NCBI GenBank assembly: GCA_023488905.1
Contig: JAMDCQ010000011.1
Location: 1 to 37,944 of the forward strand
Length of the DNA: 37,944 bases
DNA from: Candidatus Bathyarchaeota archaeon
Lineage (GTDB): Archaea; Thermoproteota; Bathyarchaeia; Bathyarchaeales; Bathycorpusculaceae
Direction of reading: 5' to 3'
Positions 3,423-36,193 of the stretch are shown here, piece after piece. The position numbers and the translations under genes were made by a program. How positions within the stretch are numbered: the stretch's first letter is position 1; each line of letters opens with the position of its first letter. Below the pieces are notes generated by a model. It was given only the letters and a program-made list of their open reading frames with translations. It was not told the origin of the DNA and did not search any database.

Positions 3423-3752
3423 CTATTTTTTGTGCCGCTTAATACGGTCTTGTCGCTGTTCCTTCTTGCGCCAGTCTCTCTTGCGTTGCGTCTGCATAGA
3501 GAACCGTTCTTGGCGTGGAGCATCTGATTTTCTAAAACGCGAAACATTCCCATAGAAGGTGCCCATGTCAATTTTGTTATCAAATAGGTCCTGTATGTTC
3601 CGGTTTAGTTCCTCTTTTGCTTGGCTGTCACGTGCCTTGTCGAATGCTTCTTCATAGACAACGTAAGCAGCATGAAACTGGAAATTCTCGGGGTTATCGA
3701 TTAAAAGTTTTTGGGGTTGGGTTTGGTTGTTCGGGTTTGGTTGTTCGGTCAT
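3423..3752 (-). CDS. Small charged protein of unknown function
   Basis: A 109-aa protein if the ATG at 3752 is used (a TTG eight codons upstream is open). The N-terminal 20 residues are rich in Pro, Asn and Gln, the middle is amphipathic (ENFQFHAAYVVYEEAFDKA), and the last 35 residues are strongly basic with many Arg, Lys and Gln, suggesting nucleic-acid contact. It shows no motif I recognise. It lies just upstream of the endonuclease V-like gene on the same strand and may share its transcript. Confidence 0.6.
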   Translation of the reverse strand: MTEQPNPNNQTQPQKLLIDNPENFQFHAAYVVYEEAFDKARDSQAKEELNRNIQDLFDNKIDMGTFYGNVSRFRKSDAPRQERFSMQTQRKRDWRKKEQRQDRIKRHKK

Positions 3753-3865
3753 GTTTATCCGCTTTTGAATAGGCAATGATTGTTTTTCACTCTTTTATAG
3801 GTGTGCCTATTCGAAGAGGTGGTTTATGGTGTTTAACGACTGTTTGAGGACAGTGTGGATTTTGT

Positions 3866-4021
3866 TTTTCTAGTAGTTGTTGCCGAAAACCTCCTATACA
3901 CAACAACCAACAGACTGAGAGAAGCGGTGTATTTTGGCATCAGCCCGAGGTTTGGGTTGCAGGCGGGTTGTGGCGAATTCCGCAAGCAGAACAAAGTCGC
4001 AAAGAATCCGAAAATCAACTG
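3866..4021 (-). ncRNA. Structured RNA candidate, copy A (orientation provisional)
   Basis: This intergenic segment resembles two others, at about 17.94 and 24.87 kb. On the plus strand it reads TTTTTCTAGTAGTTGTTG, a loop, then CACAACAAC (stem GTTGTTG/CAACAAC), a variable middle, and a second hairpin TTGTGG-CGAATT-CCGCAA followed by GCAGA. An outer TTGC/GCAG pairing closes the second hairpin around a 7-base bulge (AGGCGGG). Copy B keeps both stems with different bases. I assign the minus strand because a TATA-like CTTTAAATAAGGGGGTCT lies just outside the right end in copies A and B; the plus strand is not excluded. No open frame is shared by the copies. Confidence 0.55.
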
Positions 4022-4052
4022 CTCTTGGGCGACTAGACCCCCTTATTTAAAG
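4022..4052 (-). promoter_or_regulatory. TATA/GGGGTCT box next to copy A
   Basis: Read on the minus strand: CTTTAAATAAGGGGGTCT, then a short GC segment and AGAGCAG. The same arrangement occurs twice around copy B. The CTTTAAATA core looks like an archaeal TATA box placed to start a minus-strand transcript through copy A. On the plus strand the same bases (CTTATTTAAAG) lie about 80 bases before metG and could serve that gene. Confidence 0.45.
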
Positions 4053-4132
4053 CCGCATACGAAACCGCCATCTTTCAGGTCTCTAGCAATTTTAATAAGG
4101 GCGATACCAAACGATTTGTTGGAGACATAGCT

Positions 4133-5827
4133 TTGCCAGAGAAAGTTCTTGTAACATCCGCTTGGCCCTACATCAACGCCACCCCACACTTGGGCAACCT
4201 AGTCGGCTCCGTCCTATCCGCCGACGTAACCGCCCGCTACTACCGCCTCAAAGGCGCCGACACGTTGATGGTCAGCGGTTCAGACACACACGGCACACCC
4301 ATGGAGGTCGCTGCCTTAAAAGAGGGCATAACCCCCAAAGCCCTCACCGAACGCAACCACGCTAAAGTCGCCGACCTATTCCGCCGCTGGGACGCCTCAT
4401 TTGACAATTACACCAGCACCGAGAGCCCAGTTCACAAAGAGTTCGTCCAAAAAACGCTCCTCGAAATAGAAAAAAACGGCTACATCTTCGCCAAAGACAC
4501 ACAGATGCTCTACTGCGAGCATGATCAGCGTTTTCTGCCCGACCGCTTCGTCGAAGGCAAATGCCCCTATTGTGGCTGCGAAAAAGCACGGGGCGACCAA
4601 TGCGACAGCTGCGGAAAACTCCTCGAACCAACACTGCTGGTTGAACCTTACTGCATTATCTGCAAAAGCAAGCCAGTAATTAAAAACACGAAGCACTGGT
4701 TTATCGACCTCACCATGCTTGAGCAGCCTCTAATCCAGTACATAGAAAACAACTGTCAGTTGCCGACTAACGCCAAGAACTTTAGTTTAAACTGGATAAA
4801 AGAGGGCTTAAAGCCCCGCGCGGTCACTCGTGATGTGGATTGGGGTATCCCGGCGCCGTTTGATGGCGCAGAGGGCAAAACCATCTATGTCTGGGTAGAC
4901 GCTGTTTTGGGATATGTTTCAGCCACCATTGAGCAGTGTCAACGGCTTGGGCAGCCTGAGCGTTGGCGTGATTTCTGGTTCAACAAAGACGCAAAGACGC
5001 TGTACTTTGTGGGCAAAGATAACATCCCCTTCCACACCATCATCCTCCCAGCGCTCCTCTTGGCTTCCGGACAGGGTTACAACCTACCATGGAATGTATC
5101 CGCCACAGAGTTCCTCCAGTTCCGCGGCCAAAAAGCCTCAAAAAGCCAGCGCGTGGGCATCTGGATAGATGAGGCACTGGAAATGTTCCCTGTGGATTAC
5201 TGGCGCTTCTACCTCATCGCTACGCGCCCAGAGAGCAAAGACACAAACTTTACTTGGTGCGGCTTTGCGGATAAAATCAATGCGGACTTGAACGACACTT
5301 TCGGCAACTTTATTCACAGAACGCTCTCGTTTATCAACAGCAAATTCGAAGCCACAATTCCAGCACCAACCAAACTGGATGCCGACGACCAAGCAGTCCT
5401 CGACTGCGTAAAACAGAGAGTGACGCAAGCAGCTAAAGAAATCGAGGATGGATGGCTCCAATCCGCCGCAAACACCCTTATCGCAATCAGCCGCGCAGGT
5501 AACCAGTACCTCAACACCACAGAACCCTGGAACCTTATGAAGACCGACAAAGAAAAAGCAGGAACAATCTTCTACGTTGCAGCTCAAGTTGTAAAGGCCA
5601 TTGTAGTGGTTTCGGAACCGTTTATGCCCCAAACAGCGCAGCAACTCTGGCAAACCCTGAACCTGCAGGGCACGGTAGAGCAGAGCAAATGGACAGACGC
5701 TGTAGTTCCAGTTGAAGCTGGACACAAAATCAACAAGCCCCAGCCCTTATTCCACAAGATTGACGCAAACGAAGACATACTTGACGAGCAGCTAGCGCAG
5801 GTTCGAGCCAAAGCAGGAGCCAAATGA
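4133..5827 (+). CDS. metG: Methionyl-tRNA synthetase
   Basis: A 564-aa class I synthetase that charges tRNA-Met. The HIGH-like signature is PHLGN (about residue 18), the anticodon-binding domain starts near residue 380, and the KMSKS loop reads KASKSQ, a variant with Ala for Met. The connective domain has two zinc knuckles (CPYCG/CDSCG, and YCEHD with YCIICK). No C-terminal EMAP-like tRNA-binding domain is fused. The TTG start at 4133 is supported by GGAG eight bases upstream. The PHP gene follows nine bases downstream with its ribosome site overlapping the metG stop, so the two form an operon. Confidence 0.96.
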   Translation: MPEKVLVTSAWPYINATPHLGNLVGSVLSADVTARYYRLKGADTLMVSGSDTHGTPMEVAALKEGITPKALTERNHAKVADLFRRWDASFDNYTSTESPVHKEFVQKTLLEIEKNGYIFAKDTQMLYCEHDQRFLPDRFVEGKCPYCGCEKARGDQCDSCGKLLEPTLLVEPYCIICKSKPVIKNTKHWFIDLTMLEQPLIQYIENNCQLPTNAKNFSLNWIKEGLKPRAVTRDVDWGIPAPFDGAEGKTIYVWVDAVLGYVSATIEQCQRLGQPERWRDFWFNKDAKTLYFVGKDNIPFHTIILPALLLASGQGYNLPWNVSATEFLQFRGQKASKSQRVGIWIDEALEMFPVDYWRFYLIATRPESKDTNFTWCGFADKINADLNDTFGNFIHRTLSFINSKFEATIPAPTKLDADDQAVLDCVKQRVTQAAKEIEDGWLQSAANTLIAISRAGNQYLNTTEPWNLMKTDKEKAGTIFYVAAQVVKAIVVVSEPFMPQTAQQLWQTLNLQGTVEQSKWTDAVVPVEAGHKINKPQPLFHKIDANEDILDEQLAQVRAKAGAK

Positions 5828-17885: not shown

Positions 17886-17914
17886 CTGCTCTCGGCGCTA
17901 TAGACCCCCTTATC
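17886..17914 (-). promoter_or_regulatory. GGGGTCT/GAGCAGC box left of copy B
   Basis: Minus strand: GATAAGGGGGTCTATAGC, then GCCGAGAGCAGC. It closely matches the box beside copy A (AATAAGGGGGTCTAGTCGCC, then AAGAGCAG) and a third version at 18119-18153, so copy B is flanked by the box on both sides in the same orientation. No TTTAAA precedes this one. Confidence 0.45.
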
Positions 17915-17939
17915 AGTAAATCAAAATTTGATTTGTTTG

Positions 17940-18074
17940 TTTTTCTATAGTTGTTGTTGCAGAGAACCCCTATACACAACAACAACCTACAGACGGTGTA
18001 GGCAGCTGCTTTTTGGGTTCGGCTGACGTTTGCGGCTGCAAGCTGGTTGTGAACGACACCACAAGCAGACACTA
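17940..18074 (-). ncRNA. Structured RNA candidate, copy B (orientation provisional)
   Basis: Second copy of the element at 3.87 kb. On the plus strand: TTTTTCTATAGTTGTTGTTG, a loop with AGAACCCCTATACA, CAACAACAAC closing the first stem, a variable middle, and a second hairpin TTGTG-AACGACAC-CACAA followed by GCAGACA. The outer pairing here is CTGC/GCAG around a 7-base bulge AAGCTGG (copy A has TTGC/GCAG around AGGCGGG). Stem bases change while pairing is kept. It lies between convergent protein genes, so it cannot be an mRNA leader of the right-hand neighbour. Confidence 0.57.
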
Positions 18075-18118
18075 AAAATTTTTGACCTACTGATAAAGCC
18101 ATGTTGAAAAAGCGTTTG

Positions 18119-18193: not shown

Positions 18194-19030
18194 TCACTTC
18201 AGGGCAGCCCAGAGCCTATCAAAATAGCCGCAGCACACCGCAACCACCCCCACATGCCTACTCCACAGATCAGGCCCCACAGCCAAACGCGCCGTCGGCT
18301 CAAACGCCACCGCCACCAATGCGCCATCAAAGATGGTGAGGGCAACCGCAGGCACACTGAGCATCTCGCGAAGTTCAAAAGCAGAATAATCGCTTATCCA
18401 TTTTGGGTAATTGGGGCAAGACGGCTTCTCAACAGCCACACGCACCCGCACCCCCCTCTTAAGCACCGCTTTCAGTTCATTCTCACAATGGAAACACAGC
18501 TGCCTAAACCGCACCCAACTAGAAACCACTTCGATGGAGCCCTGTGTGTCACCTATGGCTTGGAGGAATTTTTTGCCTCGGTCTGCTCCAAAGAGGGTGC
18601 CAAAACAGGGCGTCACAGCAGGCGGCGGGTAAGAGGTGTTCTGAAGCTTCCTAGCCAACTGTCGGGTTTGCTGGGTGAGGCTGTTTAGCTGGCTTGTTTT
18701 CTGTTTCAACAGCTGGTCGGCAGCCTCTGTGATGGGCGTCGCTGTAAAGGTCATGGGTCTGGTGAGGTGCTTTCGGATAAGCCCCAACGCTTGGAGGCTG
18801 TTGATTAGGGGGTAGATTTCTTGGCGATGTACCAAAGACAAATCCATAATCTCCTGAGCTTTACAGCTGCCCAACTTAAGCGTCGCCAAATACACTTTCG
18901 CCTGCCTGCCCGTCAACCCCAACCCCACCAAAACATCCACCCCCAACAAACGTTTACCCAACCGTGGCGTCAGGGCTGTTACGTTGATTTGCTTGGTCAC
19001 TGGCGGGGCGTTTATGGTTTGGTAGACCAT
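18194..19030 (-). CDS. TrmB-family transcriptional regulator
   Basis: About 278 aa from the ATG at 19030; a GTG at 19090 would overlap the zinc-ribbon gene and is less likely. The winged helix-turn-helix is at about residues 30-100 (LGLTGRQAKVYLATLKLGSC, then IMDLSLVHRQEIYPLINSLQALGLI), followed by a coiled-coil-like stretch and a C-terminal effector domain (TLFGADRGKKFLQAI through VALTIFDGALVAVAF). TrmB-type regulators usually sense sugars, but many archaeal members have unknown ligands. A remnant with the same C-terminal signature lies at 36.26 kb. Confidence 0.8.
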   Translation of the reverse strand: MVYQTINAPPVTKQINVTALTPRLGKRLLGVDVLVGLGLTGRQAKVYLATLKLGSCKAQEIMDLSLVHRQEIYPLINSLQALGLIRKHLTRPMTFTATPITEAADQLLKQKTSQLNSLTQQTRQLARKLQNTSYPPPAVTPCFGTLFGADRGKKFLQAIGDTQGSIEVVSSWVRFRQLCFHCENELKAVLKRGVRVRVAVEKPSCPNYPKWISDYSAFELREMLSVPAVALTIFDGALVAVAFEPTARLAVGPDLWSRHVGVVAVCCGYFDRLWAALK

Positions 19031-19041
19031 GTCTAATGCTC

Positions 19042-19251
19042 CTACTGAGTTACCTTGGGGTCCACGAATTGTGCTACAACCTTGCCGCACTTAGGGCAAT
19101 GCACATGAAAACCGTACTTGTACGAAGAATCCCCAGACAACACAGCGCCCCTCGTAGGAAGCACAAAGCCGCAAGCGCATACCCATACCGAATGCTTAGC
19201 CGTATCCTTGGCTTTATTTTTGGTAGGAGTGAATGTTTTAGGTCGTTTCAT
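19042..19251 (-). CDS. Small zinc-ribbon protein
   Basis: A 69-aa protein with paired knuckles C-x-C (VCACGFVLPTR) and C-x2-C (HCPKCGKVV), a zinc ribbon, and a very basic first 20 residues. It ends 11 bases before the TrmB start on the same strand, so the two are probably co-transcribed. Confidence 0.75.
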   Translation of the reverse strand: MKRPKTFTPTKNKAKDTAKHSVWVCACGFVLPTRGAVLSGDSSYKYGFHVHCPKCGKVVAQFVDPKVTQ

Positions 19252-22987: not shown

Positions 22988-23536
22988 CTACAGGTATGCT
23001 TTTAACACTTTGGTTTTCTGCAGCAGAAAGAGTATGAATCCGCTTACAGCCAACTCGGGCAACAGGTAGCTGCCATTGTACACAGACGAGTAGATTATGG
23101 GGTCTATGCCGGGGGCGTAGATGGGTGCCCAGTAGATTGCCCCCGCCAAGAAGTGCATCACAAACCGCAACCCAATCCCCACCGCTGTTCCCACGACGGG
23201 CCACTTCTGGAAGAACCCCGCCAACCCCAACACGGCAAACGCCAAGGGGTAATCAAGCAGGACCTGTATGGGGTCGATCGCGTAGGGCAACAACATGAAC
23301 TGTACGACGCCATAGATGGCACCTGTGACTACGCCGACTAACGGTCCACGCCTAAGCGAGAGCCACAAAATCGGCACCATCGACGCCAACGTGATGGAGC
23401 CGCCCTGAGGCATAACATAGATAACTATGGTGCTTAGCGCGGTGGCCAACGCGGTGAAGATGGCGATTTCAGCTAAAACTTTTGGGTTTCTAAAAGAGGT
23501 TGGATTTTTAAATTCACTTGTGTATGTAGTTTTCAC
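22988..23536 (-). CDS. thiT: ThiT-family thiamine transporter S component
   Basis: A 182-aa membrane protein with six helices. MPQGGSITLASMVPILWLSL, RRGPLVGVVTGAIYGVVQ, DPIQVLLDYPLAFAVLGLAG and the C-terminal YNGSYLLPEL match the ThiT/YuaJ family of ECF thiamine-binding subunits. A TPP riboswitch ends five bases before its GTG start, giving direct support for the substrate. The energising ECF module is not in this window. Confidence 0.92.
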   Translation of the reverse strand: MKTTYTSEFKNPTSFRNPKVLAEIAIFTALATALSTIVIYVMPQGGSITLASMVPILWLSLRRGPLVGVVTGAIYGVVQFMLLPYAIDPIQVLLDYPLAFAVLGLAGFFQKWPVVGTAVGIGLRFVMHFLAGAIYWAPIYAPGIDPIIYSSVYNGSYLLPELAVSGFILFLLQKTKVLKAYL

Positions 23537-23540
23537 TTAT

Positions 23541-23633
23541 GTTTCCCTCCGCCAGTATTACCTGGTTCAGGTTCACAGGGTCGATGCCACTTTAGGCATC
23601 CTCTCAGCCGGGTCCTATCCCAGCTCCCCAAGA
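23541..23633 (-). ncRNA. TPP riboswitch (THI element)
   Basis: On the minus strand: GGGGAGCTGGGAT opens the outer stem, GGCTGAGAGGATGCC (23595-23609) is the pyrimidine-sensing arm with the CUGAGA signature, then ACCCTGTGAACCTGAACC and GGTAATACTGGCGGAGGGAA form the pyrophosphate-sensing arm. All conserved THI-box parts are present in order. The final GGAGG doubles as the ribosome site 11 bases before the thiT GTG, so TPP binding should directly mask translation start. Thiamine pyrophosphate riboswitches are known in a few archaea. Confidence 0.95.
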
Positions 23634-23924
23634 ACTAAAAAGTAATGCAACTAAGACCCATATTAGTTTTGCTAAAACCTCTTCCGCGCCCCTGTTCCAA
23701 AGCGATTCAGCTAACGTTTCCCTAAATGGCAACGAGGTCGTAGTAAAGTTTACAAGATACCCATAGCTTGATTCCTTAGGGGAAGGGATGAAAAGAACCA
23801 TTATAAAAATGGAAGACAGCTTCTTCAATTCATTCATCTCAGTAAAAACCGTCTGGTTCCTACCGTTCATCTTCATTCTTAAAACTTTGGTTAACGTTAA
23901 AAGAAGAAAAGACAGAAAATGCAA
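23604..23924 (-). CDS. Doubtful small membrane ORF running into the riboswitch
   Basis: A 106-aa frame with two hydrophobic stretches (LSSIFIMVLFIPSP and VLAKLIWVLVALLF) around a hydrophilic middle. Its stop lies within the 5' part of the TPP aptamer, which is unusual for an intact gene and may indicate a truncated remnant. A competing plus-strand ORF of 51 aa (23788-23943, MKRTIIKMEDSFFNSF, with GGGGAAGGG before the ATG) overlaps it. I cannot decide which, if either, is real. Confidence 0.3.
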   Translation of the reverse strand: MHFLSFLLLTLTKVLRMKMNGRNQTVFTEMNELKKLSSIFIMVLFIPSPKESSYGYLVNFTTTSLPFRETLAESLWNRGAEEVLAKLIWVLVALLFSSWGAGIGPG

Positions 23925-24775: not shown

Positions 24776-24867
24776 TCAAAATTAGGAACAGCTAACCAAA
24801 TAATAAATGGAGCTACCGCAAAACTGCCCAGATGAGCCATCACAGTCGTGCTGGAAGGCTTTTTGAT

Positions 24868-24950
24868 AGGTAGTTGTGCCGAGAACGCACTTGCACAACA
24901 ACAATCCGCGGGTTGGCTGTGGAAGGCGCCATAAGCTTTGCCTTGCGGCG
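24868..24950 (-). ncRNA. Structured RNA candidate, copy C (diverged, partial)
   Basis: Plus strand: CTTTTTGATAGGTAGTTGTG, CCGAGAAC, GCACTTGCACAACAACAA, the same first hairpin as copies A and B (stem GTTGTG/CACAAC). The second hairpin is CTGTGG-AAGGCG-CCATAAG, with GGTTGG before it as in copy B. The terminal GCAGA and the nearby GGGGTCT box are absent. It lies between the divergent TauE/SafE and AbrB/PIN genes. Confidence 0.45.
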
Positions 24951-36004: not shown

Positions 36005-36193
36005 ATGGACTGGCAAATACCGAAAAAAACGCAAAGTCACTCAGCAATCACTAAACAAATCAACGTAACAGACCTGACGGAAACCAAAAAACAGACACTA
36101 TTCATCAACTGCGTTAACCAAATAGGCTTTGCAGGTTTTGTTAAAAAGGAAATCGGCAACCAAACATATTACACCTTTTTCTACGAAACCTAA
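36005..36193 (+). CDS. 62-aa hypothetical protein
   Basis: An ATG-started frame with a Gln/Thr-rich N-terminal half and a more ordered C-terminal half (LFINCVNQIGFAGFVKKEIG, then YYTFFYET). No motif recognised and no clear ribosome site. It may be the N-terminal or internal part of a decayed gene. Confidence 0.4.
   Translation: MDWQIPKKTQSHSAITKQINVTDLTETKKQTLFINCVNQIGFAGFVKKEIGNQTYYTFFYET

Follow-up and report, generated by a model that had tools for sequence, protein, structure and literature searches.

What is the structured sequence that precedes the methionyl-tRNA synthetase gene in the genome of this uncultured archaeon, and does it belong to that gene? The stretch of DNA analyzed here (37,944 nt, hereafter the window) contains a plus-strand reading frame of 564 aa with a TTG start (4133–5827), which we take to be metG, as did an initial annotation. 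That annotation, made from the sequence alone, regarded the gap before metG as a copy of a structured RNA family. Our results show that the gap carries one copy of a ~143-nt repeat, named K here, and that K is a real structured sequence, probably a mobile one rather than a private switch of metG, given its more than 100 scattered copies, its two conserved hairpins, and its partial travel as a small non-autonomous transposon.

Two whole copies of K lie in the window, both on the plus strand: copy A (3860–3998, 117.1 bits) and copy B (17937–18077, 118.9 bits). The covariance model that produced these scores was built from 99 aligned K copies, with A and B themselves in the training set. In copy A, a T-run that is conserved in the family, TTTTTCTA (3865–3872), marks the 5' edge and is followed by a hairpin, P1 (3876–3907), in which GTTGTTG (3876–3882) pairs with CAACAAC (3901–3907), an arrangement expected zero times by chance in the window. 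A linker of near-constant length and without a conserved helix (3908–3963) then leads to a second hairpin, P3 (3964–3989), where TTGTGG (3968–3973) pairs with CCGCAA (3980–3985) and the outer part (CGG 3964–3966, CAG 3987–3989) is imperfect. The T-run, the stem, and the hairpin with its GCAGA were thus all present as annotated, and copy B has the same order, with its P1 (GTTGTTGTTG/CAACAACAAC) at 17950–17986 and its P3 (CTG-G-TTGTG/CACAA-G-CAG) at 18043–18068. A third copy was annotated without coordinates; its best candidate, probably copy C, lies at 24857–24939 on the plus strand (20 bits, E = 0.0017 for the window) and retains the T-run, a GTTGTGC/GCACAAC hairpin, and a short 3' hairpin, while an internal deletion has removed most of the linker. 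A further TTTTTCTA at 36176 does not overlap any covariance-model match better than E = 5. The annotated interval (3866–4052) was drawn too long at its 3' end, since ~4019–4066 on the plus strand is part of a different dispersed promoter-like repeat, module Q, with a TATA-like CTTATTTAAA at 4042–4051.

K is abundant in its own genome (1.79 Mb, 23 contigs, ~91% complete). A DNA search with the region before metG returned 55 matches there, and profile searches recovered 33 full-length copies, then 105 when relatives were included; 99 of the 105 form the alignment used below (L008, L011, L027, L032, L085, and L109 were left out). With the covariance model, the own genome has at least 114 matches at E ≤ 1e-4, a lower bound because only 150 of 932 first-look candidates were scored. 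At 114 × 143 nt in 1.79 Mb, K makes up about one percent of the genome. Among 32 genomes of the genus (100 candidates scored in each), 15 had a match at E ≤ 0.01 and 17 had none, with between 0 and 95 matches per relative. A sample of 151 genomes from the class, searched under Infernal's stricter filters, which can miss weak copies, yielded 13 with a match: six belong to the same genus, four to two further genera in its family, and three to another family with single weak matches (E = 5e-4 to 2e-3) that we do not rely on. These patchy counts mean that K comes and goes between close relatives. No match to the K sequence pattern, which fits 30 of the 99 family rows, was seen in viral contigs. 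The notion of an ordered hairpin architecture shared by a family is therefore borne out, with many copies in three genera.

Upon inspection of the 99-copy alignment, we found real compensatory change in the P1 hairpin. P1 is paired in 88.6% of cells, and both sides have changed in five of its seven pairs. P1 and P3 together contain 51 double-changed cells versus 21.0 in shuffled alignments, with a covariation score of 0.170 versus 0.117, and none of 500 shuffles reached either observed value. The number of pairs with a both-side change, taken alone, is not above the shuffles, and, P1 being a triplet repeat, moving the partner by three columns still gives a fairly high score. Another 42 matches from 40 further loci (21 outside the own genome) were aligned by fitting to the model and gave 31 double-changed cells versus 15.0 shuffled (0 of 500). 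P1 variants among the copies include GTTGTTG/CAACAAC, GAAGAAG/CTTCTTC, and GAAGATG/CATCTTC, and in another genus GTAGATG/CATCTAC (L227) and AGTTGTGCA/TGCACAACT (L237). Of two P1 pairs that were checked, at least one is mispaired in 19 of the 99 copies. Resolution is poor in the tree used to count changes, 59 of whose 96 inner branches are open; on it, the AU-type P1 requires at least 12 changes versus 13.3 for shuffled labels, and at least three are forced by well-supported branches.

The other proposed pairings fared less well. The core of P3 (TTGTGG/CCRCAA) is conserved, and its variation is almost all wobble. The TTGC/GCAG outer helix, which was annotated as still paired through sequence change with a retained 7-base bulge, is paired in 91.3% of cells, but the structure that includes it has one double-changed cell versus 5.2 in shuffled alignments; its covariation is not above the shuffles, and as a covarying helix it was set aside. 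An alternative outer pairing, CTG-G-TTGTGG/CCRCAA-G-CAG, is paired in 89.5% of outer cells and has four double-changed cells; copy A forms two of its three outer pairs and all four of the TTGC (3957–3960)/GCAG (3986–3989) pairs, so the outer part might pair either way. A long outer stem around K was likewise rejected, as the best flank pairing averaged 19.6 versus 18.9 with shuffled partners, copies with transposon repeats excepted. Taken whole, the element folds no more stably than its shuffled counterparts do (mean z = -0.44), and it is the two local hairpins alone that stand out. The contention that pairing is conserved over sequence is supported by P1; the outer helix adds no covariation to it. 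The wider alignment that the initial annotation had called for did contain covariation, in the 5' hairpin of 99 copies, and for that hairpin the objection that covariation might be lacking falls away.

The plus strand of K is favored, not proven. P3 has 91 G-T versus 19 A-C cells on this strand, and P3 taken alone also folds more stably, relative to shuffles, when read as plus strand (mean z = -1.96) than as minus strand (-0.80). P1 points against the plus strand, with one G-T versus 18 A-C cells, 8 of the 18 falling on the final pair, the helix being shorter in some copies. In 81 of 99 copies, 79 nt separate the end of P1 from P3, and a search for a third helix inside the linker found none that is conserved across copies.

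K apparently has not been described in the libraries searched. At gathering thresholds, Rfam models matched nothing in the whole window other than a TPP riboswitch aptamer (23527–23640, minus strand, 63.5 bits against a gathering score of 54.3); a relaxed search of 3700–4200 and searches of 7 and of 14 loci with K copies returned nothing on K, as the initial annotation had surmised in assigning the sequence to no known class. Archaeal H/ACA and C/D guide RNAs occur as dozens of small structured RNA copies per genome, a copy number that K resembles; unlike them, K does not conserve the defining boxes. The H/ACA-like guide RNA that was previously considered is not supported, with an ACA within 9 nt after CAAG in just 34 of 91 copies, and a C/D guide RNA was rejected too, since the C box (RTGATGA) is found in 0 of 99 copies, the D box (CTGA) in 29, and both in none. 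In the titles and abstract openings covered by our literature search, whose scope lay outside subscription journals and preprints, we met no description of the K family.

The ends of K connect it to a transposon. Copy B is a repeat-bounded element spanning 17914–18092, with a left terminal inverted repeat, CAGTAAATCAAA (17914–17925), just after TTAT, and a right one, TTTGACCTACTG (18081–18092), followed by ATAA. The 12-bp terminal inverted repeat of such elements is CAGTAGATCAAA. Allowing up to three mismatches, 24 of 105 K copies carry it on the left, 29 on the right, 13 on both sides, and 40 on either, versus a background of 3 (left) and 2 (right) in flanks ~250 bp away; at the remaining 65, copy A included, no inverted repeat is recognizable at either end. 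In the own genome, the repeat (up to one mismatch) occurs 92 times versus 4 for a reversed control. Many occurrences form inverted pairs ~165–185 bp apart around K, others are ~254–278 bp apart around a second core, M, and one pair, 1113 bp apart and flanked on either side by TTAT, contains an open frame of 349 aa. This last is a complete transposon (L194 558–1670; G000 C22:38857–39969), inserted in a TATA-like box. Its protein matches Pfam DDE_Tnp_1 (1.1e-11) and NCBIfam ISH3 (4.4e-51), and is called ISH3-like only, because its score against NF033541 (173.8 bits) is below the curated cut-off of 225. The own genome therefore contains an autonomous relative with the same ends as the K elements. 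A second, identical transposase piece of 29 aa was noted at the end of contig C6.

Of 36 repeat-bounded stretches, 12 are bordered by exact 4-bp direct repeats versus 5.7 in shuffled data (0 of 2000 as high); the other 24 lack them, and a few of the 36 are probably chance pairs. Several repeat-bounded insertions split TATA-like boxes. A comparison of an empty and a filled site (L304, L312) showed K in genome G024 and ~224 nt less in G013. For copy A, one locus (L123) shares the gene order, but divergence of its gap prevents the ends from being located; for copy B, no empty site could be found because the adjoining gene has no close orthologues in the genus (best 46% identity). That neighbor of copy B is a 298-aa gene (18194–19090, minus strand); the own genome contains 13 matches to it at E ≤ 0.001, and congeners have many. 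At E ≤ 0.001, the transposase was not found in the K-rich relatives G009, G014, G016, and G029, some of whose K copies do carry the repeat. Judging from these sequences, K appears to be mobile, at least in part. We also noted one inverted-repeat pair (341 bp, L062 431–771) that holds two tandem K copies, as if a compound element had moved.

Copies without repeats keep 6.23 of the seven P1 pairs intact on average versus 5.83 in copies with repeats, and this, with the near-constant linker, indicates more conservation than expected of dead MITEs. Two orthologous pairs, from a gene neighborhood in which G013 and G024 each carry two K copies at matching positions, have identities of 0.825 and 0.776 with 3 gap columns each; the flanks (60–120 nt) range from 0.64 to 0.77, with between 2 and 42 gap columns (shuffled flanks, 0.574). 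This hints, from two pairs only, that K is constrained in place at orthologous sites.

Taking these observations together, we lean, by a little, towards K being a MITE-like element whose core is structured at the RNA level and which has been moved in part by the ISH3-like transposase. K has some of the traits of a MITE: it is multi-copy and intergenic, with neither a transposase gene nor a coding signal of its own. Its core is probably structured at the level of RNA. We envisage K as a short interspersed element of this kind in Bathyarchaeia, composed of T-run, P1, near-fixed linker, and P3, with more than 100 intergenic copies. An ISH3-like DDE transposase recognizing CAGTAGATCAAA would act in trans to move copies with intact ends, with insertion at TTAT/TTAA, often inside TATA boxes, and copies without ends would have lost them or have spread by other routes. 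The hairpins might owe their retention to transcription of the element, with P1 and P3 folding in the RNA; P3 would fit the plus strand. A likely effect on host transcripts would be that read-in is stopped at the T-run and that ends are protected or processed. Several points count against this reading: the majority of copies without ends, the missing transposase in K-rich relatives, the strand bias of P1, the 24 repeat-bounded stretches lacking exact direct repeats, a linker and a P1 better preserved than dead MITEs would lead one to expect, and the T-run before P1, which would be an obstacle to transcription entering K from upstream.

If K is a mobile element, it would provide a clear archaeal example of a MITE with a covarying fold in its core, and would caution that covarying pairing in a multi-copy family is by itself no proof of an RNA gene. 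If its copies work as RNAs, a transposon would have built a very large RNA family, with effects that could be tested by comparing K-rich with K-free sister species.

The latter possibility, a functional non-coding RNA gene family comprising dozens of small RNAs in which a fixed two-hairpin scaffold and a variable, target-recognizing linker act in trans, spread by transposition and kept by selection, ranks second after the MITE-like element; we consider it conceivable but doubtful. Compensatory change in P1 extends to another genus, the linker is nearly constant in length, P1 persists in copies without transposon ends, and the two orthologous copies are more alike than their flanks, all of which would suit such a family. 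So would the 5 of 147 copies that start 3–22 nt past the 3' end of a same-strand tRNA (L011, L095, L103, L238, and L248), none of the 147 being within 250 nt 5' of a tRNA gene. However, most copies lack a recurrent upstream promoter: a TATA-like match within 40 nt upstream is found for 18% of 67 own copies, 5% of 58 congeneric copies, and 16% of 19 further ones, so that promoter-driven K was rejected as a general rule. About half of the genus has no match, which makes K dispensable, and the orthologous constraint comes from two pairs only. More than 100 working loci in one archaeon would constitute a transposon-built RNA regulon or guide system, and we think this rather unlikely. Alternatively, the hairpins might act as single-stranded DNA, as substrates of HUH/Y1 transposases (IS200/IS605, REP, or PATE-like). 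The two subterminal hairpins and the almost pure Watson-Crick pairing of P1 (604 such cells to its single G-T) fit such a role, but the G-T cells of P3 suit RNA, and the inverted and direct repeats together with a same-ended DDE transposase fit another mechanism; we judge this reading to be improbable.

Copy A lies on the metG strand, and K might in principle be a cis-regulatory RNA leader of the downstream gene. A Q-like promoter stretch does follow K in the own genome, on the same strand in 13 of 41 copies and on the opposite strand in 1 of 41 (background, 3 and 4 of 108 windows on the two strands), but in none of 13 copies from relatives. K shares the strand of the downstream gene in 20 of 53 loci and of the upstream gene in 23 of 53, and all four arrangements occur; the direction of K is random relative to neighboring genes, which also fails to support the RNA gene that was initially proposed. 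Moreover, a conserved promoter-like box of metG, AGCAATTTTAATAAGG (4085–4100, plus strand, identified by eye), lies downstream of K. The box is recognizable by eye in all 13 of the relatives' metG loci inspected for it, out of 43 retrieved. The nearest of these relatives are metagenome-assembled Bathyarchaeota including Candidatus Bathycorpusculum, which points to a Bathycorpusculum-like genus for the window, and none of the 43 loci, several with less than 3 kb of upstream sequence, has K (best E = 0.48). Copy A thus appears, from its position, to be an insertion upstream of an existing metG promoter and would not control metG as a leader, a role for which we see very little chance. Equally remote is the idea that K is a remnant of coding sequence with a conserved peptide. 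Stops are fewest in frame 0 of the plus strand (33 over the 99 copies, 70 of which are stop-free), and the related module M has a 3-base rhythm; yet in every K frame pN/pS agrees with column-shuffled values (z = -1.53 to -0.27), stops or frame shifts occur in many copies, 79 copies show no synonymous excess, and both P1 strands change together. Coding on either strand was rejected for K.

Among known systems, the MITE-like reading of K finds its closest parallels in Correia/NEMIS and ERIC, bacterial MITEs with RNA-folding cores (PMC10969869, PMC2229807). As far as the parts of these sources that we consulted describe them, K resembles both in being short, non-coding, and intergenic, in its tens to hundreds of copies, the inverted ends of part of these copies, and insertion near promoters, and presumably in forming structure in the transcript. 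It differs in being archaeal, in its ISH3-like ends and many copies without recognizable ends, in having two local hairpins and a linker rather than one long palindrome, and in the strong base-pair covariation between copies. The CIR repeats of Caulobacter, compared by description only, share the plan of two arms and a linker with a phylogenetically conserved structure, in an unrelated host and with a GANTC site (PMC2229807, consulted in part). Sulfolobus SM1–SM4, likewise compared by description, are archaeal MITEs present in dozens of copies, whose movement is ascribed to IS transposases acting in trans, as K's may be; a conserved RNA fold, present in K, is not mentioned for them in the portion of the source consulted (PMC10969869).

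K is not the only dispersed module in this genome. Module Q (GCTGCTCT...GACTAGACCCCCTTATTTAAAGGCGCATACGAAACCG) shows ~90% identity at several places when its best 40-odd bases are compared, with sites in the window (4019–4066) and at L013, L015, L021, L023, L030, L032, L035, L036, and L038. The second core, M, lies within repeat-bounded elements that measure 254–278 bp and share their ends with K elements; 13 copies were aligned (L164 1501–1774, L165, L170, L171, L184, L192, L197–L199, L205–L207, and L030). Because a 3-base rhythm is seen in 11 rows (one frame with pN/pS 2.9, z = 7.3), M may hold, or once have held, a small CxxCG-containing reading frame. Intergenic regions of the own genome (L007, L009, L012, L019, L028, L037, L064, L065, and L082) are mosaics in which K, Q, M, and at least two more modules follow one another in recurring order.
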